A stretch of DNA of 64,000 bases from Amycolatopsis balhimycina FH 1894 (GTDB lineage Bacteria; Actinomycetota; Actinomycetes; Mycobacteriales; Pseudonocardiaceae), in assembly GCF_000384295.1 (NCBI RefSeq), contig NZ_KB913037.1, positions 4,846,868-4,910,867 on the forward strand, in the 5' to 3' direction. The notes below the pieces were generated by a model that saw nothing but the letters and a program-made list of their open reading frames with translations, made no database searches and had not been told where the DNA came from. Positions within the stretch are counted from its first letter, which is position 1; each line of letters opens with the position of its first letter. The position numbers were made by a program, and so were the translations under genes. Of this stretch, positions 4,571-20,156 are shown one piece after another.

Positions 4571-5541
4571 GCCCCGCACCTTCCGACGCCGGCAGCGAAA
4601 TCGACGAAGCAGTTCGTGAACTGAGCGAGCTTCGGCGGGGTCGCGGAATCTTCGCCACGGACATCGAGCAACGCACCGGCCGCATCCTCCGGGAAACCTG
4701 TGCGATCCAGACGACCGACACGGAACGCCAGATCAGGGAGAAACTGATCCAGGCGATCACGAGTCTGGCGACGATGCTGCCCGACGACCTGCAGCTGGCG
4801 GCACTGACTGCCCTCGGCATGGAGGAGAACTGTTCGGGCGAGTTCCTCGACCAGCGCCTGAAGTGGCTGGCGGAAGCGCTCGGCCGGGATCCGCGGACCG
4901 CTCGCAGGCGCGTCGACCTCGCCTTCCGCCGGATGGCCGAAGAACTGATCGAGAAGAAACAGTCCCCCGCGGACGACTATTCCGCCGAGCAGTGGCACAC
5001 CGAATCAGTACACGGCGTATTCCGGCTCGACCTCGAATTTCCCGTGCTGACCGAAATCCGCCAGATAGTGTCGTCGGTGAACGGACTGGACGAAATCCAG
5101 CTTCCCGCGACAGCGCCGCGGCGGACGCCGAGCCAGAAGGACCACGTCCGGGCCGAGTTCATGTACGGCGGAAGAATCCTCGAACACCGGCAGGCCTCGC
5201 CGAGCCACATGATCTTGACCGTCCAGCTCGCCAAAACCCTCCACATCGGCGAGCGCTACGAGTACTGCATCCAGTACACGGTGCTGTCTCCCGAACTGAT
5301 GCACTCGTACTACTTCCTGACCCCGCTGCGAAAAACGAGCCGCTTCAGCGCCCGCGTGAAGTTCGCCCCGGACCGCCTGCCGCGGCACGTGTGGGCGGTC
5401 CACGGCATACCTCCGCGAGCGGCAGAAGAGATCAATTCCGAAGACGTCCCCATGACGATCGATCGGATCGGCGAGGTGACCGCCGAGTTCGAACTGCTCA
5501 GGCAAGGCCTGACTTACGGACTGCGCTGGTCGGATTCCTGA
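4567..5541 (+). CDS. Uncharacterised two-part protein, helical N-half and beta-rich C-half
   Basis: 324 aa from the ATG at 4567, which overlaps the upstream stop (ATGA). Residues 1-140 are helical and charged (LRRGRGIFATDIEQRTGRILRE is typical); the DPRTARRRVDLAF stretch looks like a DNA-binding or helical bundle turn. Residues about 150-320 alternate hydrophobic and polar residues and contain FRLDLEFP and VTAEFELLRQGLTYGLRW, suggesting a beta sandwich. No catalytic motif is visible. It pairs with the small membrane protein upstream, and the phased repeats before the operon may control both. No function is assigned. Confidence 0.65.
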   Translation: MSPAPSDAGSEIDEAVRELSELRRGRGIFATDIEQRTGRILRETCAIQTTDTERQIREKLIQAITSLATMLPDDLQLAALTALGMEENCSGEFLDQRLKWLAEALGRDPRTARRRVDLAFRRMAEELIEKKQSPADDYSAEQWHTESVHGVFRLDLEFPVLTEIRQIVSSVNGLDEIQLPATAPRRTPSQKDHVRAEFMYGGRILEHRQASPSHMILTVQLAKTLHIGERYEYCIQYTVLSPELMHSYYFLTPLRKTSRFSARVKFAPDRLPRHVWAVHGIPPRAAEEINSEDVPMTIDRIGEVTAEFELLRQGLTYGLRWSDS

Positions 5542-5871
5542 CCTGCGCGAGCCGCAGCAGGCTGATCCCGAACAGCAGCCCCCCAGCGGGACGTGCACGG
5601 TCTTCACGTGCGCGATCCCCAGCGCCACCTGCGCCGGCGCGAGCCCCAGGAACACGGCCGCGTGGAGGATCGGGCGGGCCGAGCCGCCACCCGGTCGCCA
5701 CGCCAGGATCGCGGCGACGACGTGCGCCACCGCCACGACGAACACCGTGTACGCCGAGGCGCTGTGCAGCGCGTGCCCGTTCGGGGTGGTCAGCAGCAGG
5801 CCGGCGGTGACCGGTGAAAGGAAGACGGCCAGCGTCTGCAGCGCGATCGTGACGCGCAAGAAGGTTGCCAT
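5498..5871 (-). pseudogene. Four-helix membrane protein interrupted by a frameshift at a six-G run
   Basis: From ATG 5871 the product starts MATFLRVTIALQTLAVFLSP and has hydrophobic segments through HVPLG. At the run of six G (C6 on the plus strand, 5579-5584) the frame fails: the read frame goes on as CCSGSACC, while the -1 frame gives LLFGISLLRLAQVRNPTSAV and a stop at 5498. Joined, the product is about 124 aa with four membrane helices, the size of actinobacterial DUF6220-like proteins. The context G GGG GGC is also a formal -1 slippery heptamer. A one-base indel, real or from sequencing, is the simpler reading. Its end overlaps the upstream convergent gene. Confidence 0.6.
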
Positions 5872-5917
5872 GCGGACCCGACGACGCCGCCATCCGAAAC
5901 GTGAGGTCGCCGGGCCG

Positions 5918-6097
5918 TCACGGCTGTTCCTTACGCTTGATTTCGAGCGGCGGGTGCAGGGCCTTCGCGATCTCGGGGATGTCCTCCGGCCGCGCCTTGG
6001 ACACCAAGGTCTTCGCGGTCAGCCACTTGCAGACCGGCCTGACGATGGATCCGACCGCGATTATCACGACCGCAAGCTCGGGAAGTCCGGCTGACAT
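5918..6097 (-). CDS. Small membrane protein, 59 aa
   Basis: The ATG at 6097 is preceded by AAGGAGTGGAGC, a good ribosome site; a longer in-frame start at 6163 lacks one. The product begins MSAGLPELAVVIIAVGSIVRP, giving one transmembrane helix, then a basic and acidic tail ending EIKRKEQP. The family was not recognised. The 262 nt between this gene and the next (6098-6359) are non-coding and carry a small palindrome, TGACA-TC-TGTCA (6289-6300), a possible repressor site for the gene at 6360. Confidence 0.5.
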   Translation of the reverse strand: MSAGLPELAVVIIAVGSIVRPVCKWLTAKTLVSKARPEDIPEIAKALHPPLEIKRKEQP

Positions 6098-6359
6098 GCT
6101 CCACTCCTTGCCTACCCGATCGGGCATGCAAAGTGCACGAGCCAGCCCGACCAGCGTTTCCACTGGGTAGGCTGCGCCCCAAGACTCGCAGCGCTAGCGA
6201 TCTTTTCGAGCCACCGAACACTGCTGCGCCCCTCCAAACGCGGACGGTGGGCTCAAATCGCGCTGCCGATTCTAGCAAGCCAGGCCCGTGACATCTGTCA
6301 GGCCGAAGTCGTGGCGGACGACATCCTTCCGACGGCCGCCTCCGCGACAAGCTCTTCTC

Positions 6360-7019
6360 ATGACGACGAAGACGAACCAGCCCGGCAGCAACCTCCTCAA
6401 GACCCTCGCGATCGAGATCGCCGTCCCGACCGGCGTCTACTACGGACTTCACTCGCTCGGCGCGAGCGACTTCACCGCGCTCGCCCTCGCCGGGGTGTTC
6501 CCGCTGGCCCGGACCCTCTACCAGTTCGCGAAGGACCGGACCGTCAACGGCCTCGCGCTGGTCGTCCTCGTGACCAATGTCGTCGGCATGCTGTTGACCT
6601 TCGTCTCCGGCGACGCCCGGATGATGATCGCCAAGGACTCGCTCGGCAGCGGTATCACCGGCCTGGTCATCCTCGTCTCCGCGTTCACCGCGGCCCCGAT
6701 CATGACCAAGACGATGCGCCCCTTCCTCACCCGCGGCAACGCGGAACGGGAAGCCGCATGGGAACGCCTGAGCGGCACCGCGCAGTTCGACGCCGTCCTG
6801 CGGCGCTGCAGCGTGATCTGGGGCATCGGCTTCGCGCTGGAAAGCTCGGTTCGCATCGTCGGCGCGTTCACGCTGCCCATCGCGACCATGGTCTGGCTGA
6901 GCACCACCATCTTCGCGGCCGCCTTCGCGGTCATCATGGTCGTCGCCGGCAAGGTCGCCGAAAAGGCGGGCAAGATGATCGCCGCCGACGCGCAGACCAG
7001 TGCACTCGTGGCCGCTTGA
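6360..7019 (+). CDS. Multi-pass membrane protein, VC0807-like family
   Basis: 219 aa with six or so hydrophobic segments: GVYYGLHSLGASDFTALALAG near the start, LALVVLVTNVVGMLLTF, GITGLVILVSAFTAAPI, and a C-terminal pair around IATMVWLSTTIFAAAFAVI. The FLTRGNAEREAAWERLSGTAQF loop resembles the actinobacterial VC0807/septation-A-like membrane family, whose function is not established. A palindrome TGACATCTGTCA lies 60 nt upstream. The ATG at 6360 is the first in-frame start that leaves the N-terminal helix intact. The family call is from memory of the pattern. Confidence 0.65.
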   Translation: MTTKTNQPGSNLLKTLAIEIAVPTGVYYGLHSLGASDFTALALAGVFPLARTLYQFAKDRTVNGLALVVLVTNVVGMLLTFVSGDARMMIAKDSLGSGITGLVILVSAFTAAPIMTKTMRPFLTRGNAEREAAWERLSGTAQFDAVLRRCSVIWGIGFALESSVRIVGAFTLPIATMVWLSTTIFAAAFAVIMVVAGKVAEKAGKMIAADAQTSALVAA

Positions 7020-7051
7020 CCTGCGACAACACGGGGTGTACAGGTGTGGAC

Positions 7052-7744
7052 ATGTTCAGCAAGCGGCAGCAGCTGGTCGGGGACCTCACGGAGCTGATCC
7101 GCTCCGGCCGGCTCGCCCACGGCGATCGGCTCCCCGGCGAGAACCAGCTCGCCCTGCAATACCAGGTCAGCCGCGGCACCGTGCGCAGCGCGTTGTCCGA
7201 GCTGCAGCAGCTCGAACTCATCTCCACCCAGGCCGGCGTCGGATCGTTCGTCACCTTCGACGGGGTCCAGCTCGACCAGCGGATCGGCTGGGCCCGGGCC
7301 CTCGCCGACGCCGGTGCGCCGGTCACCACCGAGCTCCTCGGCATCGAGACCGTCGAAGACGCCGCCCTCGACGAGGAGTTCGGCGAGAAGACCTACGTCG
7401 CCGTCCGGCGGGTGCGGCGGGAGCACGACCGCGGGATCTCGCTGGAAACCGCCACCGTGCCCGCCGTCGGACCGCTCGCCGCCCTCCCCGAGACGGGCCT
7501 GCGGGACGGCTCCCTCACCAAGACCCTCGAAGCCGCCGGGCGGGTCTCCGTCGGCGGCGACCAGTGGATCAGCACCGAACGCCTCGACGCCTGCGCGGCC
7601 GATCTGCTGGACCGCGCCATCGGCGAACTCTTCCTCCGGGCCGAACGCACCTCCGTCGACGTCGAAGGCCGGCTCGTCGAGCGCGTCGTCAGCCTGCTGG
7701 ACCCGGACCGCTTCCAGTTCCACCTCACCTTCGGACACCGGTGA
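7052..7744 (+). CDS. GntR/HutC-family transcriptional regulator
   Basis: 230 aa. The winged HTH lies at about 5-70, with the GntR signature RLPGENQLALQYQVSRGTVR. A UTRA-type effector domain fills about 85-225, ending FHLTFGHR. It is first in a run of five overlapping genes and likely controls them and itself: TGTACA/TGTGGAC half-sites lie just before the start (7036-7050). E. coli yegW holds the same place next to yegTUV. The start at 7052 is the first Met; a GTG two codons earlier is possible. Confidence 0.85.
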   Translation: MFSKRQQLVGDLTELIRSGRLAHGDRLPGENQLALQYQVSRGTVRSALSELQQLELISTQAGVGSFVTFDGVQLDQRIGWARALADAGAPVTTELLGIETVEDAALDEEFGEKTYVAVRRVRREHDRGISLETATVPAVGPLAALPETGLRDGSLTKTLEAAGRVSVGGDQWISTERLDACAADLLDRAIGELFLRAERTSVDVEGRLVERVVSLLDPDRFQFHLTFGHR

Positions 7745-8742
7745 GCGCGCGGGACCGGGCGCTCGGCGCGTTCACCGGGCTGGCCGTCGGCGACGCGCTC
7801 GGCATGCCGACGCAGTCGATGTCCCGCGCCGCCATCGCCGCGACCTACGGCCCGGTGACCGGCCTGCTCACCGCCGTCGCCGAGCAGCCGGTCGCGCCGT
7901 CGATGCCCGCCGGGTCGGTCACCGACGACACCGAGCAGGCCATCCTGCTGGCCCGCCTGCTCATCGACGGCCGCGGCACCGTCGAGCCGCACGTTTTCGC
8001 CGACGCGCTGCTCATCTGGGAGGCGGACATGGTCCGCCGCGGTTCCGCGGACCTGCTCGGCCCGTCCACCAAGCGCGCGCTTTCCCGGCTGCAGGACGGC
8101 GTCCCGGCGGACGAAGCCGGCCGCACCGGGACGACCAACGGCGCTGCCATGCGGGTCACGCCGGTCGGCATCGCCACCCCCGCCGAGGACCTGCACGCCC
8201 TGGTCGACGCCGTCGTCGCGACCGCGCGGGTCACGCACAACACCAGCCTCGGCATCGCGTCGGCCGCCGCGGTCGCCGCCGCCGTTTCGGCCGGAGTGGA
8301 CGGCGCGAGCCTGGCCGAAGCGCTCGACGCGGGCGAGCGCGCGGCCGTCGTCGGCGGGGAACGCGGGCACTGGGCGCCCGGCGGCGAGATCGCCGCCCGG
8401 ATCCGGTGGGCCCGCCGCTGGGTGCGCGGCATGGCCCCGGACGCCGTCGCCGACGCGGTCGCGCGGGTGATCGGCACGTCGGTCGCGTCGCAGGAGTCCG
8501 TCGTGGCCGCCTTCGCGCTGGCCGAAGCCATGGGCGACGACCCGCCCGCGGCGCTGCGCCTGGCCGCCGGGCTGGGCGGCGACACCGACACCGTCGCCGC
8601 GATCTGCGGGGCGATGCTCGGGGCCGCGCACGGCATCGACGCCTTCCGCCCCGACGTCGTCGAAACCGTGCTCGCCGTCAACCGGCTCGAATTCGGGCCG
8701 CTGGTCGACGAACTCCTGAAGCTTCGGCGGCGCGCACGATGA
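7741..8742 (+). CDS. ADP-ribosylglycohydrolase family hydrolase
   Basis: 333 aa with a GTG start overlapping the regulator stop (GTGA). It carries the two metal-binding signatures of the all-helical ARH/DraG fold: TDDTE at 61-65 and GGDTDT (aspartates 281 and 283) near the C-terminus. The early GLAVGDALGMP segment is also typical. Family members cleave N- or O-glycosidic bonds to ADP-ribose or related ribosides. Together with a PfkB kinase and a base permease, a role as a nucleoside-type glycosidase (like YegU) is more likely than protein de-ADP-ribosylation. That substrate is inference. Confidence 0.85.
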   Translation: MSARDRALGAFTGLAVGDALGMPTQSMSRAAIAATYGPVTGLLTAVAEQPVAPSMPAGSVTDDTEQAILLARLLIDGRGTVEPHVFADALLIWEADMVRRGSADLLGPSTKRALSRLQDGVPADEAGRTGTTNGAAMRVTPVGIATPAEDLHALVDAVVATARVTHNTSLGIASAAAVAAAVSAGVDGASLAEALDAGERAAVVGGERGHWAPGGEIAARIRWARRWVRGMAPDAVADAVARVIGTSVASQESVVAAFALAEAMGDDPPAALRLAAGLGGDTDTVAAICGAMLGAAHGIDAFRPDVVETVLAVNRLEFGPLVDELLKLRRRAR

Positions 8743-9614
8743 CCGGGCGGCTGGTGCACACCGGGCAGGTCGTCGTCGACCTCGTCATGGCGGTGCCGGC
8801 CCTGCCACCTCCGGGCGGTGACGTCCTGGCGTCGTCGACGAACCTGGTGCCCGGCGGCGGTTTCAACGTCATGGCCGCTGCTGCGCGCTCCGGCGCCCGC
8901 GTGCTCTACGCGGGCAGCCACGGCACCGGCGGTTTCGGCGACCTCGCCCGCGCGGCCCTCGCGGCCGAGGGCGTGGAACTGGCGCACGAACCGATGTCCG
9001 AAGTGGACACCGGCGTCGTCGTGGTGCTGGTCGACGGGACCGGTGAGCGCACCTTCGCGACCGGCACCGGCGCCGAAGGACGGCTGCGCGCCGAACTGCT
9101 CGACCGGGTCCTCCCAAAGAATGACGACGTGGTCTACGTGAGCGGATACAGTTTGGTGCACGAGATCAACCGCGCGGCGCTCCTCGGCTGGTTACCCCGG
9201 CTACCCGGCTCGAGGATCCTGTTCGACCCCGGCCCACTCATCGCTGACATCGACCCTGGAGACCTTCATGACATTCTGTCCACAATAGACATAATGAGCT
9301 GCAACGCCCGTGAAGCCGAGGTGCTCGGCGAGCTGCCCCCGGTCGCTGTCGTCCGTGACGGCGCGAAGGGGTGCCGGGTCCACGAAAACGGCCACATCAC
9401 CGACGTCCCCGGCTTCCCGGTCGACGCCGTGGACACCAATGGCGCGGGAGACACGCACTGCGGTGTACTGGCCGCGGAGCTGCTGCGCGGCAGTACTCTC
9501 CTCGACGCCGCCGTGCGCGCCAACGCGGCGGCCGCCCTTTCGGTGACCCGCCGCGGCCCGGCGACCGCGCCGGTCCGGGAGGAGATCGACGAGCTCGTGG
9601 AGGCCACACCATGA
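8739..9614 (+). CDS. PfkB/ribokinase-family sugar or nucleoside kinase
   Basis: 291 aa with an ATGA overlap to the preceding gene. The substrate-side signature GGGFNVMAAAARSGA lies in the first 60 residues, and the ATP/catalytic signature DTNGAGDTHCG is at 232-242 with catalytic base Asp238. It probably phosphorylates the ribose or nucleoside released by the glycohydrolase encoded next to it. The gene order matches E. coli yegU-yegV. Length and motifs are complete. The exact substrate cannot be read from the sequence. Confidence 0.88.
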   Translation: MTGRLVHTGQVVVDLVMAVPALPPPGGDVLASSTNLVPGGGFNVMAAAARSGARVLYAGSHGTGGFGDLARAALAAEGVELAHEPMSEVDTGVVVVLVDGTGERTFATGTGAEGRLRAELLDRVLPKNDDVVYVSGYSLVHEINRAALLGWLPRLPGSRILFDPGPLIADIDPGDLHDILSTIDIMSCNAREAEVLGELPPVAVVRDGAKGCRVHENGHITDVPGFPVDAVDTNGAGDTHCGVLAAELLRGSTLLDAAVRANAAAALSVTRRGPATAPVREEIDELVEATP

Positions 9615-11044
9615 CCGGTACCCGCAGGCTCGAGGTGGAGACCAACGGCCTCGACGTGATCGACGACGCCGAGCGCCGCGGGACGCCACGCCAGCTGTTC
9701 TGGCCCTGGTTCGGCGCGAACGTTTCGGTGCTGGGGCTGAGCTACGGCTCGTTCACCCTGGGCTTCGGCATCTCGTTCGGGCAGGCGCTGGTCGCCGGTG
9801 TGGTCGGCATCCTCTTCTCGTTCCTGCTGTGCGGGTTCATCGCCATCGCGGGCAAACGCGGGTCGGCGCCGACGATGCTGCTCTCGCGCGCGGCGTTCGG
9901 CGTCCGCGGCAACCGGCTGCCGTCGGCGATCTCGTGGCTGCTCACGGTGGGCTGGGAAACCGTGCTGACCGCGTTGGCGACGCTGGCCACGGCGACGGTG
10001 TTCGAACGCCTGGGCTGGGGCGGCGGGACACCGACGAAGGCGATCGCGCTGGTCGTCGTGGCCGCCCTGACCGTCGCCGCCGGTGTGCTCGGCTTCGACG
10101 CGATCATGAAGCTGCAGACGTGGATCACCTGGATCACCGGCGTGCTCACGGTCGTCTACGTCGTCCTCGTGGCCGGCGACGTCCACTGGGACGCGGTGCG
10201 GGCGCTGCCGTCGGGCTCGGCGCAGCAATGGGTCGGCGCGCTGGTGTTCCTGATGACCGGCTTCGGCCTCGGCTGGGTCAACGCGGCCGCGGACTACTCG
10301 CGCTACCTGCCGCGGTCGTCGTCGAGCCGCGGCGTGGTCGGCTGGACGACGTTCGGCGCCTCCGTGGCGCCGCTGGTGCTGCTGGTGTTCGGGCTGCTGC
10401 TGGCCGGGTCCTCGCCGGACCTGAACAAGGCGATCGCGGCCGACCCGATCGGCGCGCTGACGACGTTGCTGCCGCTGTGGTTCCTGGTGCCGTTCGCGAT
10501 CGTCGCGGTGCTCGGCCTGGTCGGCGGCGCGGTGCTGGACATCTATTCGTCAGGGCTGGCGCTGCTCTCGGCCGGGCTGCGCGTGCCGCGGCCGGTGGCG
10601 GCGCTCGTCGACGGCGTGATCATGGTGCTGGGCACGGTCTACATCGTGTTCTTCGGCGGCGAGTTCCTCGGCCAGTTCCAGGGTTTCCTGGTGACGCTGG
10701 GCGTGCCCGTCGCGGCGTGGTGCGGCGTGATGCTCGCGGACGTCCTGTTGCGGCGCCGCGACTACGCCGAGCAGGAGCTGTTCGACCCGGCCGGCCGCTA
10801 CGGCGACGTCCGGGCCGGGCCGATCGCGCTGGTGCTGGTGGCGACCGCACTCGGCTGGGGCCTGGTGACGAACGCGTCGGCGGACTGGCTGAAGTGGCAG
10901 GGTTACCTCCTCGAGCCGTTCGGCCTCGGCGGCCGGGACGGCTCGTGGGCGTTCGCGAACCTCGGTGTCCTGCTGGCGCTGGTGCTCGGCTTCGCCGTCA
11001 CGCTGCTGACCCGGCGGCGCGTCCGGGCGCAGGAGACGGCGTGA
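9611..11044 (+). CDS. NCS1-family nucleobase (cytosine/purine) permease
   Basis: 477 aa, predicted 12 transmembrane helices, with an ATGA overlap to the kinase gene. The N-terminus (RRGTPRQLFWPWFGANVSVL) and the helix with ADYSRYLP are typical of NCS1 cytosine/purine/allantoin transporters. It probably imports the base or nucleoside that the glycohydrolase, kinase and cysteine hydrolase process. In yegTUVW the transporter is an MFS nucleoside carrier, so this would be a non-homologous replacement. The substrate is inferred only at the class level. Confidence 0.88.
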   Translation: MTGTRRLEVETNGLDVIDDAERRGTPRQLFWPWFGANVSVLGLSYGSFTLGFGISFGQALVAGVVGILFSFLLCGFIAIAGKRGSAPTMLLSRAAFGVRGNRLPSAISWLLTVGWETVLTALATLATATVFERLGWGGGTPTKAIALVVVAALTVAAGVLGFDAIMKLQTWITWITGVLTVVYVVLVAGDVHWDAVRALPSGSAQQWVGALVFLMTGFGLGWVNAAADYSRYLPRSSSSRGVVGWTTFGASVAPLVLLVFGLLLAGSSPDLNKAIAADPIGALTTLLPLWFLVPFAIVAVLGLVGGAVLDIYSSGLALLSAGLRVPRPVAALVDGVIMVLGTVYIVFFGGEFLGQFQGFLVTLGVPVAAWCGVMLADVLLRRRDYAEQELFDPAGRYGDVRAGPIALVLVATALGWGLVTNASADWLKWQGYLLEPFGLGGRDGSWAFANLGVLLALVLGFAVTLLTRRRVRAQETA

Positions 11045-11568
11045 AGGCGGTCCTGGCGGTCATCGACCTGCAGAACGTGTTCGCCGACCCGGCGAGCCCG
11101 TGGTTCACCCCGCGGTTCGCCGAGGTGGTGCCGCCGATCCGGCGCCTGGTGACGGCGTTCGGCGACGACGTCGTGTTCACCCGGTTCGTCGCGCCCCGGC
11201 AGCCGGAAGGGGCGTGGAAGCAGTACTACGCGCAGTGGCCGTTCGCCCTTCAGCCGCCGGACGCGCCGCTGTACCAAGTGGTCGGCGCGTTCCAGCCCAA
11301 GTCCACTGTGGACGCGACGACGTTCGGCAAGTGGCACGCGCGGATGGCGACCCGGGTGGGCGGCGCGAGCCTGGTCCTGGCGGGCGTGTCCACGGACTGC
11401 TGCGTCCTTTCGACGGCGTTGGCCGCGGCGGACGCGGGCGTCGACGTCACAGTGGTGGCCGACGCGTGCGCGAGCGTGGACGACGAGAGCCACGCGAAGG
11501 CGCTGGACATCATGCGGCTGTACGGCCCGCTGGTGAAGGTGGCCACAACGGCGGAAGTGCTGGGCTAA
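11041..11568 (+). CDS. Cysteine hydrolase, isochorismatase family
   Basis: 175 aa with a GTG start overlapping the permease stop (GTGA). It has the isochorismatase-like fold: Asp9 in AVIDLQN, a nucleophile region STDCCV (Cys120/121), and a basic residue region KWHARM between them. Such enzymes hydrolyse amides or ureido groups (nicotinamide, ureidoacrylate, biuret) as well as isochorismate. As the last gene of the five-gene operon it may act on a nitrogen product of base breakdown. The substrate is unknown. Confidence 0.85.
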   Translation: MKAVLAVIDLQNVFADPASPWFTPRFAEVVPPIRRLVTAFGDDVVFTRFVAPRQPEGAWKQYYAQWPFALQPPDAPLYQVVGAFQPKSTVDATTFGKWHARMATRVGGASLVLAGVSTDCCVLSTALAAADAGVDVTVVADACASVDDESHAKALDIMRLYGPLVKVATTAEVLG

Positions 11569-11578
11569 CCTTGGCTCG

Positions 11579-14500
11579 GTGAGCCTCGAAGCCTCGGCGA
11601 TCGCGTTGACCACGGCGGTGGTGAAGGCCGCCGCGAAGATCTGGCTCCGGGACCGCCCGATCGCAGCTGATGCTGCTGCGAAGGTGTTCGACCTGCTGGA
11701 GAAGCAGGTCACGGGCCTCAACGACCAGCGCAAGCTGCGGCTGCTGTTCACCAATCTCGAGTCCCGCGTGGCGGACCGGCTCCTGCCCTTCCTCGAGGTC
11801 GAGTTCCGGGCCCTGCCGGACAACGAGCGGACCGCCACGGTGAACGCGGCGCGCGAGACGTTCGAGCGTGCCGCGCTGACCGACGACGACCTCTTCGCCA
11901 CCGACCTCGACGCGGCTTACCTGTACCGCTACCTGCTCCGGACGGCCCCCGGCGCCTCTGCGCTCCTCTCGGCCGACGCGACGGCGCTGTATCGGCGAGT
12001 ACTCCGCGAGTGCTGCGCGTACCTCGTGCAGGTGACGAGCACCCTGCCCCGGTTCCAGCCGGGCGCGCTCGTCGAGATCCTCCGCCGTGAGACGGAGATC
12101 CTGGAGACGGTCCGGAACGTGCTCGCGGCATTGCCGGAACGCCGGCACCCGGAGGACTTCGCGGCCGACTTCAGGCGCCAAGTCGTGACGGCACTGGATC
12201 GGATGGCCCTGTTCGGCGCGGGCCTGACCGACGCGACCCGCCTGTACCCGCTGTCAGTGGCGTATCTGAGTCTGAGCATCAGCGCCGACCACGACGACGG
12301 ACCGGCTGACCGGATAGAGCACGTGCTGCCGCGATCGTCGCGGATTCTGCTTCGCGGAGAGGCCGGATCGGGCAAGACGACACTGCTGCAGTGGCTGGCC
12401 GTCCAGTGCGCGAGCCGAGAGCTGCAGGACGTCGACGGCTGGTCGGACGTGGAGCCTTTCCTGGTGCGGTTGCGGCGGTTCAGCCGGTCACCACTGCCGA
12501 CGCCGGAGCACTTCCTCGACGAGATCGGCCGGCACATCGCCGACGAGATGCCGTCCGGCTGGGTGCAGCAGCGACTGCGCCGCGGCCAGGCCGTCCTGCT
12601 CGTCGACGGCCTGGACGAGCTCCCGGACGAGCGTCGCCGTGAGGTACGCGAGTGGCTTCGCGAACTCGTCGGCGCGTTCCCGCGCGCCCGGTTCGTCGTG
12701 ACCACCCGCCCGTCCGCGGTGGCCCCCGGCTGGCTGCGCGGCGACGGGTTCACCGAGGTTCGGCTGCAGCCGATGACGCCTCGTGACGTCCGGACGTTCG
12801 TCAAGCGGTGGCACCGGGCGATGCCTGCCGTCGAAGACCGCGGCGACGCGCTGGTCGACGCCATCGTCGCCCGAAGCGCGTTGCGGCGACTGGCCGAGAA
12901 CCCGTTGATGTGCGCGCTGCTCTGCGCGCTCCACCACGAAGGCAACGGGCGGCTGCCGGACAACCGCATGGAGCTCTACGAGGTCGCATTGCGAATGCTG
13001 CTCGACAGCCGGGACATCGAGCGCCGGATCGAAGCGACCGTCCGGCTTTCCCTGACCGAGAAGCTCGTGCTGCTGCGGAACCTGGCGTACTGGCTGGTCC
13101 GCAACGGCCACACGGACGTCCCGGCCGTCGACGCCGAAGCCCGCATCGCGGCGAAGCTGCGTTCGATGGGGCAGATCGACGTCACCCCGCGAACGGTGTT
13201 CCGCCACCTGCTGGATCGTGGCGGCGTGCTGCGCGAGCCGGTTCCAGGCCGGGTCGACTTCGTGCACCGGACGTTCCAGGAGTACCTGGCCGCACAGGCG
13301 GCGGTCGAAGAGGACGACATCGGAATCCTCACAGCGAACGCACACCTGGACGAGTGGCGTGAAGTGGTCGTGCTGGCCGCGGGGCACGCTCATCCCGCGC
13401 AGCGTGAGCGCCTGCTGGACGGAATCCTCAGCTGGGACGCGGAAGAGCCGCAGCGGCTGAAGCTGGACCTGGTGGCGTTGGCTTGCCTGGAGACTTCGCC
13501 CGAGCTGAGTGAGCGGTTGCGGAACGAGATCGAGGATCGCGCGAGCACCCTGATCCCGCCGAACAGCTCCGACGTGGCCGACGCGTTGGCGGCGGCGGGC
13601 GAGTTCGTACTGGACCTGCTGGTCGGCTGCGAACCTGAGCCGGCGCAGGTTCCGTTCCTCATCCACGCCGCCGCTCTCATCGGCGGCCCGGCGGCGCTCG
13701 ACCTGATCGCACGGCATCGCAGAAGCAACGACCCTCGAGTCGTCAGTGAACTCCTCGCGGCCGATGCACAGTTCGAACCCGAGGAGTACGCAGAACGAGT
13801 GCTGGCCGATTCGCCTCTGTTCGATGGATACCTCAGCTTGTACGACCCGGCGAAGCTGGTGATAGTGCCCCGCCTCCGTCATCTCGAACGGCTGCGCTGC
13901 CGGTTCACCGATGGCTACGGGCGACTCGACTTCATGCGCGATCTGCCTCGGCTCGATTCGCTCGTGGTCGAGGACATCGCCGGCTACGACCTGCCCTCGT
14001 TGTCGGGCACCGGACTGACCCACTTGACGCTGACCGGTCCCCCGTTGCGGGAGTCGACGGATCTCAGCCCGCTCGCCGAAGTCCGTGGGTTGCGCTCGAT
14101 CGAAGCTCGGGTCGCCACCCACGGCTGGCCGGCGCTGGCCGAACTGCCCGAGCTGAAGCACCTGCAGCTGAGCTGGATCCACGACGCCGCCGAGCTGGCC
14201 GACCTGGTGCCGCTGACCGGCCTGCGGTCACTGTCCCTGAGCCATGTCTTCCGGCTCGACGACCTCACACCGCTCGAGTTCCTGGCCGCGCCGACCTCTC
14301 TCGCTTTCCTCTCCTGCAAGGCACTCGAAGACGTATCGCTGCTCACCCGGTGGGCGGCCGGCCTCCGGTGGCTGCGCCTCATCGCATGCCCACCCGCGGA
14401 TCCGGCGCCGATCGCCGAACTGACCAACCTGCGGCTGCTCGACCTGACCGCGACCGACCTGCCGGACCTGGCGCTGCTGTCCGGGCTCCGGCACCTGGAG

Positions 14501-14719
14501 GACCTGCGGTTGCGGGATCTGCGCGGCATGCCCGAGTTGACCCCGCTCGCCGATCTCGGCCGGCTCAAGAAGCTGACCGTGACGGGGATGGGCCGGCTCG
14601 ACCTGCGGCCGCTCGCCGGGCGGTCGCAGCTCCGCATCCACGTCAGCGATCTGGTCGAGCCGGTCGGGGTGCAGCTGCTCGGACCGGACAGCACCGTCGT
14701 GACCATCCAGGACCGCTGA
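11579..14719 (+). CDS. NLR-like NACHT ATPase with helical N-terminus and leucine-rich C-terminus
   Basis: 1046 aa from GTG 11579, 10 nt after the salvage operon. Residues 1-230 are all-helical with no enzymatic motif, like the NACHT N-terminal helical domains of actinobacteria. The NACHT ATPase has Walker A GEAGSGKTT (260-268) and Walker B VLLVDGLDE (339-347), followed by the NPLMCALLCALHH helix and the VHRTFQEYLAAQ motif typical of STAND proteins. From about 760 to 1030 there are leucine-rich repeats (LRSLSLSHVF, LRLLDLTATD, LEDLRLRDLR). This is the architecture of bacterial NLR-like proteins, some of which defend against phage. No separate toxin domain or partner gene is seen, so the helical domain may be the effector or its adaptor. 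Confidence 0.88.
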   Translation: MSLEASAIALTTAVVKAAAKIWLRDRPIAADAAAKVFDLLEKQVTGLNDQRKLRLLFTNLESRVADRLLPFLEVEFRALPDNERTATVNAARETFERAALTDDDLFATDLDAAYLYRYLLRTAPGASALLSADATALYRRVLRECCAYLVQVTSTLPRFQPGALVEILRRETEILETVRNVLAALPERRHPEDFAADFRRQVVTALDRMALFGAGLTDATRLYPLSVAYLSLSISADHDDGPADRIEHVLPRSSRILLRGEAGSGKTTLLQWLAVQCASRELQDVDGWSDVEPFLVRLRRFSRSPLPTPEHFLDEIGRHIADEMPSGWVQQRLRRGQAVLLVDGLDELPDERRREVREWLRELVGAFPRARFVVTTRPSAVAPGWLRGDGFTEVRLQPMTPRDVRTFVKRWHRAMPAVEDRGDALVDAIVARSALRRLAENPLMCALLCALHHEGNGRLPDNRMELYEVALRMLLDSRDIERRIEATVRLSLTEKLVLLRNLAYWLVRNGHTDVPAVDAEARIAAKLRSMGQIDVTPRTVFRHLLDRGGVLREPVPGRVDFVHRTFQEYLAAQAAVEEDDIGILTANAHLDEWREVVVLAAGHAHPAQRERLLDGILSWDAEEPQRLKLDLVALACLETSPELSERLRNEIEDRASTLIPPNSSDVADALAAAGEFVLDLLVGCEPEPAQVPFLIHAAALIGGPAALDLIARHRRSNDPRVVSELLAADAQFEPEEYAERVLADSPLFDGYLSLYDPAKLVIVPRLRHLERLRCRFTDGYGRLDFMRDLPRLDSLVVEDIAGYDLPSLSGTGLTHLTLTGPPLRESTDLSPLAEVRGLRSIEARVATHGWPALAELPELKHLQLSWIHDAAELADLVPLTGLRSLSLSHVFRLDDLTPLEFLAAPTSLAFLSCKALEDVSLLTRWAAGLRWLRLIACPPADPAPIAELTNLRLLDLTATDLPDLALLSGLRHLEDLRLRDLRGMPELTPLADLGRLKKLTVTGMGRLDLRPLAGRSQLRIHVSDLVEPVGVQLLGPDSTVVTIQDR

Positions 14720-14756
14720 CACCGGACGTCCAACCGGGCGAAGTAGATTCGCCTCC

Positions 14757-15590
14757 GTGATCGACCACATCAGCATCCCCACCGAGGCCGGTACCTTCGA
14801 CGCCATCGCGGCCGGGCCCGAGGACGGGCGGCCCGTGTTGCTGCTGCACGGCTTCCCCGAAGCCGCCACCGAGTGGGAGCACCAGGTCGCCACTCTCGGG
14901 GTGCTCGGGTTCCGGGCCGTCGCGCCGGATCAGCGGGGGTACTCGCCGGACGTGCGGCCCGAGCAGGCGGGCGACTACTCGATCGATCACCTCGTCGGGG
15001 ACGTCGTCACCGTCACGGAAGCACTGGGCTGGCCGAAGTTCGACCTCGTCGGGCACGACTGGGGTGGCGCCGTCGCGTGGTGGACCGCCGACGCGCACCC
15101 GGAGCGGCTGCGCAGCCTCACCGTCGTGTCGACGCCGCACCCCGCCGCGCTCGCCGGCGCCATGAAGACCGACGAGGACCAGTACCTGCGCACCCGCTAC
15201 CTGACCGAGTGGCGGCAGACCCGCGTCACCGAGCGGCGGATGCTGGAGAACGACGCCCGTGCGCTGCGCGACATGTTCGAGCGGCGGGTGTCGCCGTCCA
15301 AGGTCGACGACTACGTGCGGCGCCTGGCCGAGCCGGGCGCGCTCACCGCCGCGCTCAACTGGTATCGCGCGGGCCGGCCGGGCGGGAAGATCGGCAAGAT
15401 CTCCGTGCCGACGCTGTACATCTGGAGCACCGAAGACGTCTCGTTCGGTTCCACCGCCGCGCTCGACACCGCCAACTGGGTCACCGGGCCCTACCGCTTC
15501 GAAATGCTCGAAGACGTCACGCACTGGGTTCCCGAGGAGGCTCCGGAGGCCGTCACGACGCTGCTCGTCGAGCACCTCAACGCGCGGTAA
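14757..15590 (+). CDS. Alpha/beta hydrolase (epoxide-hydrolase-like)
   Basis: 277 aa with a GTG start. It has LLLHGFPE with the oxyanion HG near residue 31, the nucleophile elbow GHDWGG with Asp101, and His256 in DVTHWVPEE. An Asp nucleophile in GHDWGG, together with the HGFPE motif, points to epoxide hydrolases or haloalkane dehalogenase relatives rather than Ser esterases. The cytosolic substrate is unknown. It stands alone between the NACHT gene and idi, 37 nt after the former. Confidence 0.85.
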   Translation: MIDHISIPTEAGTFDAIAAGPEDGRPVLLLHGFPEAATEWEHQVATLGVLGFRAVAPDQRGYSPDVRPEQAGDYSIDHLVGDVVTVTEALGWPKFDLVGHDWGGAVAWWTADAHPERLRSLTVVSTPHPAALAGAMKTDEDQYLRTRYLTEWRQTRVTERRMLENDARALRDMFERRVSPSKVDDYVRRLAEPGALTAALNWYRAGRPGGKIGKISVPTLYIWSTEDVSFGSTAALDTANWVTGPYRFEMLEDVTHWVPEEAPEAVTTLLVEHLNAR

Positions 15591-15676
15591 CGGCGCGTCA
15601 CACCGCCGGGCGGACGGGCGGTAACCCACCCGCCTTGCGGTACGGCTCGCCGCGGCCCGTCGTGTTCACTGGGCGG

Positions 15677-16261
15677 GTGGACACCGCGACCGAACCCGAG
15701 ACCGAACAGATCGTCTTCGTCACCGAGGACGGCGTGCCCACCGGTGAGACCGGCCCGAAACTGGCCAGCCACCACGAACACACCCGGTTGCACCTGGCCT
15801 TCTCGTGTTACGTGCTGCGCCGCAGCGACAACGCCCTGCTGATCACCCAGCGCGCCCTCCACAAGAAGGTCTGGCCGGGAGTCTGGACCAACAGCGTCTG
15901 CGGCCACCCCGCACCCGGCGAATCCCTCGAGGACGCCGTCCTCCGGCGCGCAGCCTACGAGCTCGGGGTGCCTTCGCTGGCCGGGCTGCACTGCGTGCTG
16001 CCGGCCTACCGCTACCGGACGCCGCCGTTCCAGGGGATCGTCGAGAACGAGTTCTGCCCGGTGTTCGCGGCGTGGGCCGACGCCGAGCCGGCGCCGAACC
16101 CGGCCGAGGTCGGCGACTGGCGCTGGGTCAGCTGGCCCGGCTACACCGAGCTACTGAACGATCCGACGGCTAATGTGAGTTACTGGGCCAAGGACCAGTT
16201 CTCCCAGCTCAAGGACATTGAGCCGTTCGCCGGACTCGCAACACCACACTCCGCAGAGTAA
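15677..16261 (+). CDS. idi: Isopentenyl-diphosphate delta-isomerase, type I
   Basis: 194 aa. A Nudix-like enzyme that interconverts IPP and DMAPP for isoprenoids. The catalytic cysteine is Cys75 in TNSVCGHP, the metal region is RRAAYELGV, and the catalytic glutamate region is ENEFC (123-127). ITQRALHKKVWPGVWTN is the classic type I signature. The GTG at 15677 was chosen; a GTG at 15662 would add five residues. No other isoprenoid gene is adjacent. Confidence 0.93.
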   Translation: MDTATEPETEQIVFVTEDGVPTGETGPKLASHHEHTRLHLAFSCYVLRRSDNALLITQRALHKKVWPGVWTNSVCGHPAPGESLEDAVLRRAAYELGVPSLAGLHCVLPAYRYRTPPFQGIVENEFCPVFAAWADAEPAPNPAEVGDWRWVSWPGYTELLNDPTANVSYWAKDQFSQLKDIEPFAGLATPHSAE

Positions 16262-16360
16262 CCGCCCGGCTCCCGTTTGAGCGAAATTCACCTTCTTCCG
16301 CACCGACGTCTCAAGCGCGGCCTCCGCCGCGACGACAACCAATGCGTGGTGGAGGTGGGC

Positions 16361-17062
16361 ATGGTCGCCGAGGGCGACGGCGCGATGCCCCGGCCTGGCG
16401 GCCCGCCGCACCAGCCGGACCTGCTTCGCCTCCACGAGGCCATCGCCGGCCTCTTCGCCACCCAGGGCGACTGGCGCCGTGCCTACCAGCACCTGCGGTC
16501 CGCGCTGGACATCGCCCGCGACGGCAGCCTGCGCGACGCGCTGACGTCGAGCTACAACCGCCGTTACCTCGACGAGCGGCTGTACGGACCGTTCACCGAA
16601 CGACAGGCGGCGCGTTCGCCGCTGGGCATCGCGCTCGTCGACGTCGACCGCTTCAAGAGCGTCAACGACACGTACGGTCACCTCGTCGGCGACCGCGTCC
16701 TCCGCCGGGTCGCCGACCTCCTCCAGGAGAACCTGCCGCCGGACGGCTTCTGCGCCCGCTACGGCGGCGAGGAGTTCGTGCTGTGGCTGCCGGGGGTCGA
16801 CGCCGGGCACGCCGTCCGCATCGTCGACGACGCCCGCCTCCGCGTCGCCCGTCATCCCTGGTCAGAACTCCAGCCGGGGCTGCGGGTCACCATCAGCGCC
16901 GGCCTGGCGCACCACGCACCGGGATCCGGGACGACGCCCACGTCACCCGAGCGGCAGCTGCGCAGCGCGGACACCTTGCTTTATGCGGCCAAACGTGCGG
17001 GCCGGAACAAAGTGGCCTATCACGACGCGCAAACGACACAGTTAATAACCCACTCTGAGTAA
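16361..17062 (+). CDS. Diguanylate cyclase (GGDEF domain)
   Basis: 233 aa from the ATG at 16361, which has GGAGG five nt before it; the TTG at 16277 would be longer but has no ribosome site. The active-site motif is YGGEEF (134-139), with DVDRFKSVNDTYGH upstream (metal and substrate binding) and an N-terminal helical, TPR-like segment (RAYQHLRSALDIARDG). The residues before GGEEF lack the RxxD inhibitory site. It makes c-di-GMP, which the RsiG encoded 18 kb away can sense. No membrane segment is seen, so it is cytosolic. Confidence 0.88.
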   Translation: MVAEGDGAMPRPGGPPHQPDLLRLHEAIAGLFATQGDWRRAYQHLRSALDIARDGSLRDALTSSYNRRYLDERLYGPFTERQAARSPLGIALVDVDRFKSVNDTYGHLVGDRVLRRVADLLQENLPPDGFCARYGGEEFVLWLPGVDAGHAVRIVDDARLRVARHPWSELQPGLRVTISAGLAHHAPGSGTTPTSPERQLRSADTLLYAAKRAGRNKVAYHDAQTTQLITHSE

Positions 17063-17271
17063 CACAAACACCGCATTACTCCGGTTTGCCGACAAGGTGC
17101 ATCACCCGTTTGTCGACGCACACCGGCCGTTCGTCGACTCAAGGTGAAGAAAATTCCGGGAGGGTGTCGTCACGAACGGGGGGTATCCGTACGATAACGA
17201 AAACCTCCGGGGAACGATCACCTCCTGCGGGGGAAGACGGCCATGTAGACCCGTGTTCGAAAGGAGACCGA

Positions 17272-19407
17272 GTGCCGGACGAGCACGACAGCCCGGGAAC
17301 CGGTCGCCGCCTCGACGGTCCCGCGCGCCCCCGGGCCGGCAGGCGCCGGTCGATGGAGGACCAGGGCGGGATCAGCGTCTCCGACGTCGTCGCCAAGACC
17401 ACCGGCGTCCGCCCCGTGCCGGCCCGTGAGCAGCAAGACCGCTCCGACCAGCCGGGACACCGTGGCCGCACCGCCGAACCACCCGTCCCGCCGGCTCCGG
17501 CCCGGGCCGCGCAGCCGCCGCGTGCGCCGCGGCCGGCGCAGGCTCCCGCAGAAGACCCAGTACCCACGGACGCCACTCGTCAATCGCGCCCGCCGCGGCC
17601 GCGTCAGCCGCGCCGCACGACGGCCGCCGCTCCGCTGCCCGAGGCCCCGCTCCAGCGCCGCCCGGCCGCGAACCCGGGAGCGCAGCAGACGTCGGCCGCA
17701 CCCCAGCCGCCACGGCGGCCCCGCCGCCCGGCCGCCGACGGCGCCGCGCCGCAGGCCGCCGAGGGCGTCCCATCGCGCCGCCCCGCCGGTCCGGCCGCCC
17801 GGCGCCCGGCAGCCACCCCCGAGGGAGCAGCCCCTCGGCACCCCGCGGCCGACGCGCCCGCGCCCCTCCGCGCGCCCGTCGTCCCGGAAACAGCGACGCC
17901 CGAGGCCGGCCGCACCCAGGCCGCCCCGGTACCCGACGCGCCGGCCCGGCCCCTGACCGGCGGCGTGCCGCCGCGCGCCGAGCTCGACCCGCTGACCATG
18001 ACCGACGAGATGGAAGCGATCGACGAGGCGACGCAGTACCGCCGCAAGATCGACCACACGCTCGCCCGGTTCTCGGCCGCGCACGACGAGATGGAAGCCG
18101 AGGAGGCGAAGCGCCGCGAACGCCGTGACCGCCTCTCGCCGACTTCGCTGATCGAGAGCACGCGTACGGCGCTTCAGCGCGTCGTCGCACCGGTGCCGTC
18201 GCCGGACGAAGAGGCCGACGCCGCCGAGAAGGCCGAGCAGACCCGGCTGCAGGAGAAGAAGCGGCGGAAGATCGAGCGCACGGCCCGGTTCGGCCGGATC
18301 GCCGCGGCCGTCGTCGCCGGTCTCGTGTTCCTCGGCATCGGCGGCGCGTGGGGCGCCCAGACGTACTTCGACGCCAAGTTCACGCAGGTCTCCGCGCTGG
18401 ACGAGAACTCGTCCGACATCCAGGACGCCGAGGCGCAGGCGAACGACGAGAACTTCCTGATGGTCGGCTCCGACACCCGTGACGGCGCCTCCGACGAGGA
18501 AGGTGTCGGCACCGCCGACAGCACCCCGGGGGCGCGCTCGGACACCGTGATGGTGGCGCACATCCCGGCCGACCGGAAGCGCGTCGTCGTCACGTCGTTC
18601 CCCCGCGACCTGGAGATCGACCGGCCCGACTGCCAGCGATGGGACCCGGCGCAGAACAAGACCACCGACCAGGTCTCTCCGAGGCAGAAGATCGCCAAGC
18701 TCAACACCGCGTACGCCGTGGGCGGGCCGCCCTGTGTGACCAAGGTCATCCAGCAGATCACCGGCCTGCGGATCAACCACTTCGTCGGCATCGACTTCAA
18801 CGGCTTCAAGGAGATGGTCGACGCCGTGCACGGGGTCACCATCCACACCGACAAACCGATCGACGACGAGGTCCTCGGCAAGGTCGTGATGCAGACCGGT
18901 GACGTGACGATCTCCGGCGACCAGGCGCTGAACTACGTGCGCGCGCGGCACGTCCGGTCCGACGTGGCGAAGTCGGACTACGACCGGATCAAGCGGCAGC
19001 AGGCGTTCATCGGCGCGCTGCTGAAGAAGGTCATGTCGTCGGACGTCGTGCTCGACCCCGGCAAGCTCAGCGACTTCATCACGGCGTTCGCGAAGGCCAC
19101 CTTCGGCGACAACCTCGGCGTCAAGCAGATGATGACGCTGGCGCAGTCGATGAAGGGCCTGGACCCGTCGAAGATCACGTTCCTCACGGTCCCGACGGTC
19201 GGCATAGCCAACAGCCGCGGCAACGAGGTCCTCGTCGTCAGCAAGACGAAGGCCCTCTTCGAAGCGCTGCGCAACAACACCGCGATGCCCGACCCGAACG
19301 CGCCGATCCCGCGCAGCGAGCAGGCGCCGCCGACCAGCACGTCGAAGCCGAAGAGCAGCGGCAGTTCCAAGTCGACCACCACCCGCAAGAGCACCAGCAA
19401 CGGCTGA
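17272..19407 (+). CDS. LytR-CpsA-Psr (LCP) family cell-wall ligase with long Pro-rich cytosolic tail
   Basis: 711 aa with a GTG start and AAAGGAG eight nt before it. Residues 1-330 are low complexity (Pro/Ala/Arg, with an acidic KRRERRDR linker) and cytosolic. One membrane helix lies at about 342-362. The LCP domain follows: NFLMVGSDTRDG (393 on), ARSDTVMV, SFPRDLEI, HFVGIDFNGF, and the polyprenyl-binding arginines in YVRARHVRSDVAKSDYDR and IKRQQ. It transfers glycopolymers from lipid carriers to peptidoglycan outside the cell. The C-terminus is Ser/Lys/Thr-rich. Mycobacteria carry an LCP gene (Rv0822c) next to phoY2 in the same way. Confidence 0.93.
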   Translation: MPDEHDSPGTGRRLDGPARPRAGRRRSMEDQGGISVSDVVAKTTGVRPVPAREQQDRSDQPGHRGRTAEPPVPPAPARAAQPPRAPRPAQAPAEDPVPTDATRQSRPPRPRQPRRTTAAAPLPEAPLQRRPAANPGAQQTSAAPQPPRRPRRPAADGAAPQAAEGVPSRRPAGPAARRPAATPEGAAPRHPAADAPAPLRAPVVPETATPEAGRTQAAPVPDAPARPLTGGVPPRAELDPLTMTDEMEAIDEATQYRRKIDHTLARFSAAHDEMEAEEAKRRERRDRLSPTSLIESTRTALQRVVAPVPSPDEEADAAEKAEQTRLQEKKRRKIERTARFGRIAAAVVAGLVFLGIGGAWGAQTYFDAKFTQVSALDENSSDIQDAEAQANDENFLMVGSDTRDGASDEEGVGTADSTPGARSDTVMVAHIPADRKRVVVTSFPRDLEIDRPDCQRWDPAQNKTTDQVSPRQKIAKLNTAYAVGGPPCVTKVIQQITGLRINHFVGIDFNGFKEMVDAVHGVTIHTDKPIDDEVLGKVVMQTGDVTISGDQALNYVRARHVRSDVAKSDYDRIKRQQAFIGALLKKVMSSDVVLDPGKLSDFITAFAKATFGDNLGVKQMMTLAQSMKGLDPSKITFLTVPTVGIANSRGNEVLVVSKTKALFEALRNNTAMPDPNAPIPRSEQAPPTSTSKPKSSGSSKSTTTRKSTSNG

Positions 19408-19429
19408 GCCGCGAGGATCGTTAGACCGG

Positions 19430-19451
19430 GTTCACATGCGGTTCACCCGGC
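19430..19451 (+). promoter_or_regulatory. PHO box upstream of phoU
   Basis: Two adjacent 11-nt direct repeats, GTTCACATGCG and GTTCACCCGGC, match the actinobacterial PhoP-binding unit. A -10 box TAGGGT (19479-19484) lies 27 nt downstream and is followed by six nt and the phoU ATG, so the transcript is probably leaderless and phosphate-controlled. Confidence 0.8.
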
Positions 19452-19490
19452 GATGCGGTATTCGGTCACAGTTGGCCGTAGGGTTGGGCC

Positions 19491-20156
19491 ATGCGTGAGG
19501 CTTACCATGTCGAACTCGAACAGCTCGCCGACCACCTGGCCGCGATGTCCGTCCAGGTCGCCGACGCCATGGAGCGCGCCACACGGGCACTGCTGGAGGT
19601 CGACCTCAGTCTCGCCGAACAAGTGATCAGCGACGACGCCAAGGTCGACGACGCCCGTGCCCAGTGCGAGGAGCAGGCGTACGCCCTGCTGGCCCTGCAG
19701 GCGCCCGTGGCGACCGATCTGCGTACCGTGCTGGCGGCGATCCACGCCGCGGAAAGCCTGGAGCGGATGGGCGACCTGGCACTGCACGTGGCGAAGGCCG
19801 CGCGGCGCCGACACCCGGAGCCGGTGCTGCCGGACTCGGTGCGGCCGTACTTCGCCGAGATGAGCGAGGTCGCGGTCAAGCTGGCCCGCCAGGTCGAGCA
19901 GGTCATCCACTCGAAGGACGTCGAAGCGGCGAAGTCGATCGAGTCCGAGGACGACCAGGTGGACGACATCCACCGCCACCTGTTCACGGTCATCATGGAC
20001 CGCGAATGGCCGCACGGCGTGGCCGCGGCGGTCGACGTCACCCTCCTCGGCCGCTTCTACGAGCGCTACTCCGACCACGCGGTGTCGGTCGCGAAGCGGA
20101 TGATCTTCGTGGTCACCGGCAAGATGCCGGGCTACGGCACCGACGAAGACATCTGA
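19491..20156 (+). CDS. phoU: Phosphate-specific transport system accessory protein PhoU
   Basis: 221 aa with two three-helix bundles. The metal-binding signatures ESLERMGDLALHVA and ERYSDHAVSVAKR are present in the two halves. PhoU links the Pst transporter to phosphate sensing and represses Pho genes when phosphate is plentiful. The gene faces the pst operon convergently, with two hairpin terminators between them. A PHO box lies before it. Length is normal for the family (mycobacterial phoY). Confidence 0.95.
   Translation: MREAYHVELEQLADHLAAMSVQVADAMERATRALLEVDLSLAEQVISDDAKVDDARAQCEEQAYALLALQAPVATDLRTVLAAIHAAESLERMGDLALHVAKAARRRHPEPVLPDSVRPYFAEMSEVAVKLARQVEQVIHSKDVEAAKSIESEDDQVDDIHRHLFTVIMDREWPHGVAAAVDVTLLGRFYERYSDHAVSVAKRMIFVVTGKMPGYGTDEDI

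Follow-up and report, generated by a model that had tools for sequence, protein, structure and literature searches.

The soil bacterium Amycolatopsis balhimycina FH 1894 carries, in a 64,000-nucleotide stretch of contig NZ_KB913037.1 (referred to here as the window), a gene that encodes a protein with the plan of a nucleotide-binding leucine-rich repeat receptor (NLR): an N-terminal NNH1 helical domain, a central NACHT NTPase, and a C-terminal leucine-rich repeat (LRR) sensor. We put the probability at roughly 55% that the product is a single-protein NLR-type receptor, in which a variable LRR face senses an invader protein and the NNH1 domain, released by NACHT, stops or kills the cell. The data are consistent with an innate receptor that combines a constrained switch and effector module with a labile sensor and imposes a cost leading to repeated loss. 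Bacterial NACHT-LRR proteins are already known; what is new here is the behavior of the gene at a fixed chromosomal site, where it is found whole, decayed, or missing and where sensors appear to have been exchanged.

Domain architecture

The first-pass annotation, made from the letters of this DNA, had described an open reading frame at 11579-14719 with Walker A and Walker B motifs at residues 260-268 and 339-347 and had read it as an NLR-like protein with a complete NACHT ATPase and leucine-rich repeats. Both motifs are intact at these positions, and Pfam, invariant motifs, LRR matches, and structure comparison all bear out the plan. NACHT (PF05729) was matched by hmmscan at 88.2 bits against a cut-off of 26.7; in an alignment of 74 homologues, Walker A residues A262, G263, G265, K266, and T268 and Walker B residues D343, G344, D346, and E347 are invariant, as are D560, F561, H563, F566, and A571, which lie in what we take to be the winged-helix motif (residues 560-571), and the model of the NACHT module aligns with NLRP3 in structure comparison. 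The leucine-rich repeats stand C-terminally in the same chain; Pfam LRR models gave sub-cut-off matches only (best, 26.2 of 27 bits), and the LRR call is based on sequence similarity to internalins and to Roco LRRs together with structure comparison. The N-terminal domain, annotated earlier as all-helical, is likewise helical in the AF2 model and can now be named as a member of an existing Pfam family, NNH1 (PF22733; 175.4 bits against a cut-off of 27, model positions 1-177 of 177), whose function is, as far as we found, uncharacterized in print: no published function emerged from the literature searched, most of it outside subscription journals. Pfam, PADLOC, and NCBIfam detect no nuclease, TIR, or protease fusion in this protein, in agreement with the earlier statement.

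A fixed site with several states

The insertion site, here called site A, is defined by an isochorismatase gene (at least 83% identity) adjoining a hydrolase gene and was found in 28 of 80 Amycolatopsis genomes; three further genomes have an isochorismatase 66-70% identical that lies apart from the hydrolase. A full gene occupies the site in 13 of the 28, a remnant in 5, and unrelated DNA in 1, and 9 sites are empty. In the 12 full-gene genomes other than that of the window, neighbors are mostly 81-100% identical and the NACHT protein is 65-79% identical. The remnants, in gaps of 214-901 bp, derive from the same gene (G078, G066, G029, G022, and G018), the unrelated DNA (G041) is 1553 bp without similarity to the NNH1-NACHT-LRR gene, and the empty gaps measure 9-37 bp. 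Three empty sites (G016, G024, and G067) retain sequence that, by eye, resembles the end of the gene's 3' spacer, and the gene was therefore probably deleted there. Six empty sites share another junction, at which the isochorismatase has 176 residues and ends in VLAK; because outgroup isochorismatases end in VLAH, VLAN, or LLA, this junction is probably the pre-insertion state, and the cassette would have entered within the last isochorismatase codons. On the flank tree, the six VLAK genomes fall among genomes with full alleles and the states are scattered, as judged by eye and not by a formal count of changes. In G078, site A keeps only a remnant of codons 1-169, and another contig of this genome carries a 74% identical gene that aligns over all 1046 residues.

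The trees of the flanks and of the two parts of the gene are in conflict. For residues 1-600, the log-likelihood difference (delta lnL) is 225 against the flank tree and 119 against the LRR-region tree; for residues 601-1030 it is 353 against the tree of residues 1-600 and 686 against the flank tree; and for the flanks it is 1105 and 1118 against the two gene-half trees. All of these are rejections, and although the LRR alignment contains indels, such large values would probably not come from the indels alone. Because these trees reject one another, they suggest that both entire genes and sensor halves have been exchanged between lineages, and strict vertical inheritance was rejected on the disagreement of gene and flank trees. 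Two homologues illustrate the pattern: relative to the window protein, P0002 differs at 11% of NNH1 and 10% of concave LRR positions and P0004 at 11% and 49%, a contrast expected if sensors are exchanged while the chassis stays constant. A diversity-generating retroelement was set aside as a source of variation, the sole reverse-transcriptase match in the genome (G000:C1:289864-290502) being about 4.6 Mb away. Searches for carriage by phages gave no match to the gene. Those for carriage by plasmids gave no near match: in each of the 14 records, identity was under 60% and coverage under 80%.

Constraint on the chassis and variability of the sensor

Rates of change were estimated by counting (NG86 method; 78 site-A pairs; ratio of median dN to median dS) and by maximum likelihood (ML). 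Counting gave dN/dS of about 0.12-0.15 for NNH1, 0.26 for NACHT, 0.17 for residues 415-600, 0.38 for residues 601-760, and 0.56 for the LRR, with 0.12-0.24 for ten flanking genes. ML omega was 0.073 for NNH1, 0.129 for NACHT, 0.081 for residues 415-600, 0.153 for residues 601-744, 0.260 for the remainder of the LRR, and 0.501 for its concave strand residues. Of all parts of the gene, NNH1 is the most constrained when site-A copies are compared, and the dN/dS of NNH1 and NACHT is near that of the neighbors, with an absolute divergence of these two domains that is still greater than that of most flanking genes.

Within the LRR strands, counting gave 1.58, 1.16, and 1.55 at outward positions 0, 2, and 4 and 0.27 and 0.35 at inward positions, and an offset profile placed the peak of this contrast in register. 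No positions in the repeat vary more than the concave ones; inward conservation is expected of any LRR. For the concave face as preset (48 sites), counting gave 1.20 (site bootstrap, 0.86-1.60), and for a strand core of 39 sites chosen after the offset profile it gave 1.41 (1.09-1.83); in the 10 closest pairs the concave face stood at 0.85, and the nearest homologue has no excess of change at concave positions. ML with codon frequencies gave 0.405 for the preset sites and 0.501 for the strand core, the latter significantly below 1, in an analysis where the fit for the buried LRR set stayed at 1.0. We therefore dropped positive selection on the concave face, since counting values of 1.2-1.4 face codon-frequency-corrected values of 0.4-0.5; the face is hypervariable, with positive selection unproven.

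NNH1 as a putative effector

The predicted structure of NNH1 on its own is of moderate confidence (predicted local distance difference test score, 71.0); a fold search found no solved structure scoring above helical-bundle noise, and a sequence search against known structures gave no E value below 0.45. Conserved residues include W22, R51, E83, D109, D111, E166, and R170, and inspection by eye of the residues conserved at 80% or more revealed no HEPN-type or other catalytic motif. The first helix ends in W22, which is present in 93% of the NNH1 alignment, and is hydrophobic in the window protein (1.41 on a 19-residue Kyte-Doolittle scale); across the family it mostly falls below membrane-helix level (6 of 74 at 1.6 or more).

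The gene had been described as stand-alone, and as far as tested it is. The genome holds a single NNH1 match (E of 0.001 or less), alongside at least 17 NACHT matches, at least 5 of them over the cut-off (150 of 340 candidates scored). A search spanning about 105-333 residues retrieved 12 short NNH1 proteins (111-322 residues), in which Pfam found NNH1 alone or, once, NNH1 plus NACHT and no NNH1-effector fusion; sizes of about 333-575 residues were left uncovered by both protein searches. Neighbor families were surveyed at 101 loci with a gene table, 89 of them with a NACHT hit (site-A loci were left out and some genomes were counted twice), and among the 30 largest families present in at least five loci none recurred directly beside the gene apart from the families that mark a second fixed site, with bcp on the upstream side and rdgB on the downstream side. 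The first-pass annotation had left the helical domain between an effector and a recruiter of one; because no partner gene recurs, the genome has no second NNH1, and no catalytic motif was seen, an effector role is the best remaining reading, reached by exclusion, and recruitment is kept as a rival. Among same-class relatives, one locus (L060:6282-15385) has three tandem NNH1-NACHT genes and another (L061:9108-15035) has two, one with weak sub-cut-off LRR matches and the other with none, a layout that resembles sensor/helper NLR pairs; both arrays adjoin a clpC-like gene, a name read from its sequence.

It is doubtful that NNH1 is instead an adaptor through which the oligomerized receptor recruits a separate, unlinked host effector in the manner of animal CARD or PYD domains. 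The lack of a recognized catalytic signature and of a recurring neighbor away from the second fixed site would suit such a role, as would the proposal that small helical domains in bacterial conflict systems couple to effectors by homotypic contact (PMC8195603). Against it, the genome has only the single NNH1 match, and no NNH1-effector protein appeared at about 105-333 residues, although the uncovered range of about 333-575 residues and a heterotypic partner leave some room for recruitment.

A second site and wider distribution

At the second site (site B), the gap between bcp (peroxiredoxin-like) and rdgB, the gene names bcp, rdgB, rph, and murI are our reading of the sequences. Across the 80 Amycolatopsis genomes, this gap holds an NNH1 gene in 21, measures 150 bp or less in 25 (16 bp in the window's own genome) and 151-1000 bp in 10, is split over contigs in 1, and exceeds 1 kb without an NNH1 match in 23. 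A two-component-like gene or pair, named by eye, was seen in 12 of the 16 gaps retrieved from those 23, and two unusual-looking cargoes had no NACHT match. For 15 Amycolatopsis site-B loci, a set that excluded three other genera and L197, counting yielded 0.77 for exposed, 0.47 for buried, and 0.53 for other LRR positions and 0.26 for the N-terminal part; by position, exposed values were 0.99 and 0.88 against buried values of 0.35 and 0.60, the first exposed position being saturated.

Genomes over the cut-off numbered 40 of 80 in the genus, 23 of 296 in a class sample, and 9 of 396 in a phylum sample, the window's own genome being included each time; 37, 11, and 8 candidates, respectively, were scored per genome, and the class and phylum counts are possibly low. 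Outside Actinobacteria, NNH1-NACHT relatives occur in a Thermomicrobiales metagenome-assembled genome (MAG) and Ktedonobacter (L179 and L205) and in an Alphaproteobacteria MAG (L190), where a protein of 759 residues contains both NNH1 and NACHT and contamination is possible. In Paractinoplanes atraurantiacus (L186:8001-8720), an NNH1 reading frame is broken by stops, through sequencing error or decay.

Kin or non-self recognition between mycelia, as performed by fungal NLR incompatibility genes, is an improbable alternative to phage defense. It accords with the presence/absence polymorphism and the conflicting sensor trees, with the positively selected sites on the concave side of tetratricopeptide repeats in fungal NLRs (PMC4986451), and with the discussion of kin recognition for conflict systems of multicellular bacteria (PMC10907252). 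The relative on a contig binned as Alphaproteobacteria speaks against it, subject to the possible contamination of that MAG. Moreover, we know of no cytoplasmic mixing between different Amycolatopsis strains except by conjugation.

The host operon

The neighborhood of the gene is listed in Table 1. Ten neighbors between 6360 and 19407 were scanned (GntR, ADP-ribosylglycohydrolase, PfkB, permease, isochorismatase, hydrolase, NUDIX, GGDEF, LytR, and one without a Pfam match), which agrees with their earlier description as metabolic, some being regulatory. The one without a match (6360-7019), a conserved protein of 219 residues near the start of the syntenic block, is 73-87% identical in the 12 other full-gene genomes.

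Table 1. Features of the NNH1-NACHT-LRR gene and its insertion site (window coordinates)
Feature	Position	Strand	Remarks
Operon-like run: GntR/UTRA regulator, ADP-ribosylglycohydrolase, PfkB kinase, cytosine/purine permease, isochorismatase family	7046..11568	+	
10-nt gap after isochorismatase stop (11568); probable cassette entry point in its last codons	11569..11578	+	
NNH1-NACHT-LRR gene	11579..14719	+	GTG start, 1046 aa
NNH1 helical domain, residues 7-183	11597..12127	+	Pfam PF22733 E 1.6e-51; AF2 helices
NACHT NTPase domain, residues 255-414	12341..12820	+	Pfam PF05729 E 7.1e-25
Walker A GEAGSGKTT, residues 260-268	12356..12382	+	
Walker B VLLVDGLDE, residues 339-347	12593..12619	+	
Motif with invariant H563, DFVHRTFQEYLA, residues 560-571	13256..13291	+	
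LRR sensor, strands residues 751-1043	13829..14707	+	internalin/Roco-like solenoid
3' spacer	14720..14756	+	end-like sequence kept at three empty sites (G016, G024, G067), by eye
Alpha/beta-hydrolase, downstream border of insertion site	14757..15590	+	

The distance of 10 nt reported earlier is correct (isochorismatase stop at 11568, gene start at 11579) and recurs in 11 of the 13 site-A copies, with 9 nt in one and a 4-nt overlap in another. Co-transcription with the upstream operon is likely, judging from this spacing, and the shared transcript that had been proposed is in keeping with all 13 copies starting within 10 nt of the stop or overlapping it. Such close spacing is not general in the family: a same-strand upstream gene lies within 30 nt at 10 of the 19 loci of site B and at 6 of 62 loci elsewhere (5 of the 62 show no gene upstream), compared with 395 of 1317 background pairs, and tight coupling as a family-wide rule was rejected. 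Scans found no sigma-70-type promoter and one terminator-like site against 0.9 expected, and Rfam had no match in window positions 5000-20000.

The operon is the host of the cassette and lies outside the system. The regulator, glycohydrolase, permease, and isochorismatase genes are kept in 14 of the 15 site-A genomes without an intact copy, the contig of the 15th being too short to tell, and PfkB was undetected in two; related genes elsewhere follow bcp, and the suggestion that nucleotide supply is tied to the sensor is not supported. A STAND (signal transduction ATPase with numerous domains) regulator of the salvage operon or of nucleotide supply, for which the recurrent 10-nt spacing might argue, is accordingly very improbable, given the persistence of the operon genes, the bcp-associated copies at site B, the lack of any DNA-binding domain by Pfam in the NNH1-NACHT-LRR protein, and a sensor whose hypervariability would not be expected for a fixed metabolite. 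The isochorismatase gene (11041-11568) has a median dS of 0.49, compared with 0.24-0.36 for the other nine flanking genes, possibly dragged up by exchange at the adjacent cassette.

Relation to known systems

Avs proteins (antiviral STAND) carry an N-terminal nuclease, protease, or similar effector domain, whereas the N-domain of the window protein is NNH1, and no Avs model is among the 10 PADLOC families listed for it (best, PDC-S60 at 24.5 bits). Partial matches to NCBIfam EruA (residues 334-573; E, 1.7e-13) and HyoA (residues 390-573; E, 8.5e-6) fall in the NACHT-to-winged-helix region and, at 49.7 and 23.6 bits, score far under the respective equivalog cut-offs of 1000 and 1200 bits, and the protein is a member of neither family. 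Plant NB-LRR resistance genes show presence/absence polymorphism. Like the family studied here, they combine a constrained NTPase under purifying selection with LRR diversification and sequence exchange (PMC3782705); they differ in having NB-ARC in place of NACHT, and omega greater than 1 is not established for the window family. The CARD-NLR/gasdermin system has an adjacent protease and a gasdermin or other death effector (PMC13236601), whereas none of the ten scanned neighbors is a protease, gasdermin, or death effector. A close parallel lies with the bacterial NACHT (bNACHT) proteins, which include antiphage members, among them a clade that lacks a discernible effector domain (PMC12169576); NACHT-LRR members have been called "bona fide bacterial NLRs" (Kibby et al. 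2023, per PMC12169576). The window protein shares with them a central NACHT with invariant Walker motifs and the tripartite order of N-domain, NACHT, and C-terminal sensor, and differs in having NNH1 as its N-domain. Because other bacterial NACHT proteins have this activity (PMC12169576), the window protein may likewise serve in phage defense.

Proposed mechanism and significance

We suggest that the fast-changing LRR face would bind a protein of a phage or other mobile element and that binding would drive nucleotide exchange and oligomerization, as is established for NLRs and STAND NTPases. The ATP-driven NACHT switch would then release the NNH1 helical domain, and clustered NNH1 bundles would exert the effect themselves, most likely through perturbation of the membrane by the hydrophobic first helix. 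The cost of carrying the gene when it is unneeded could explain its repeated loss. More tentatively, the locus may represent a plant-like R-gene polymorphism, in which a promoterless NLR cassette occupies the final codons of a housekeeping operon. On this reading, homologous recombination in the housekeeping genes on either side would swap the presence or absence of the cassette, and its sensor half, between lineages; the constant NNH1-NACHT chassis would kill the infected cell unaided, and the invader detected would depend on the LRR allele.

The protein would be a minimal one-protein NLR with an uncharacterized executioner domain. With 13 genomes carrying divergent alleles at one site and closely related empty sites as controls, swapping alleles and sensors would offer a way to map its specificity, and such work would show whether plant-like NLR presence/absence polymorphism exists in bacteria.
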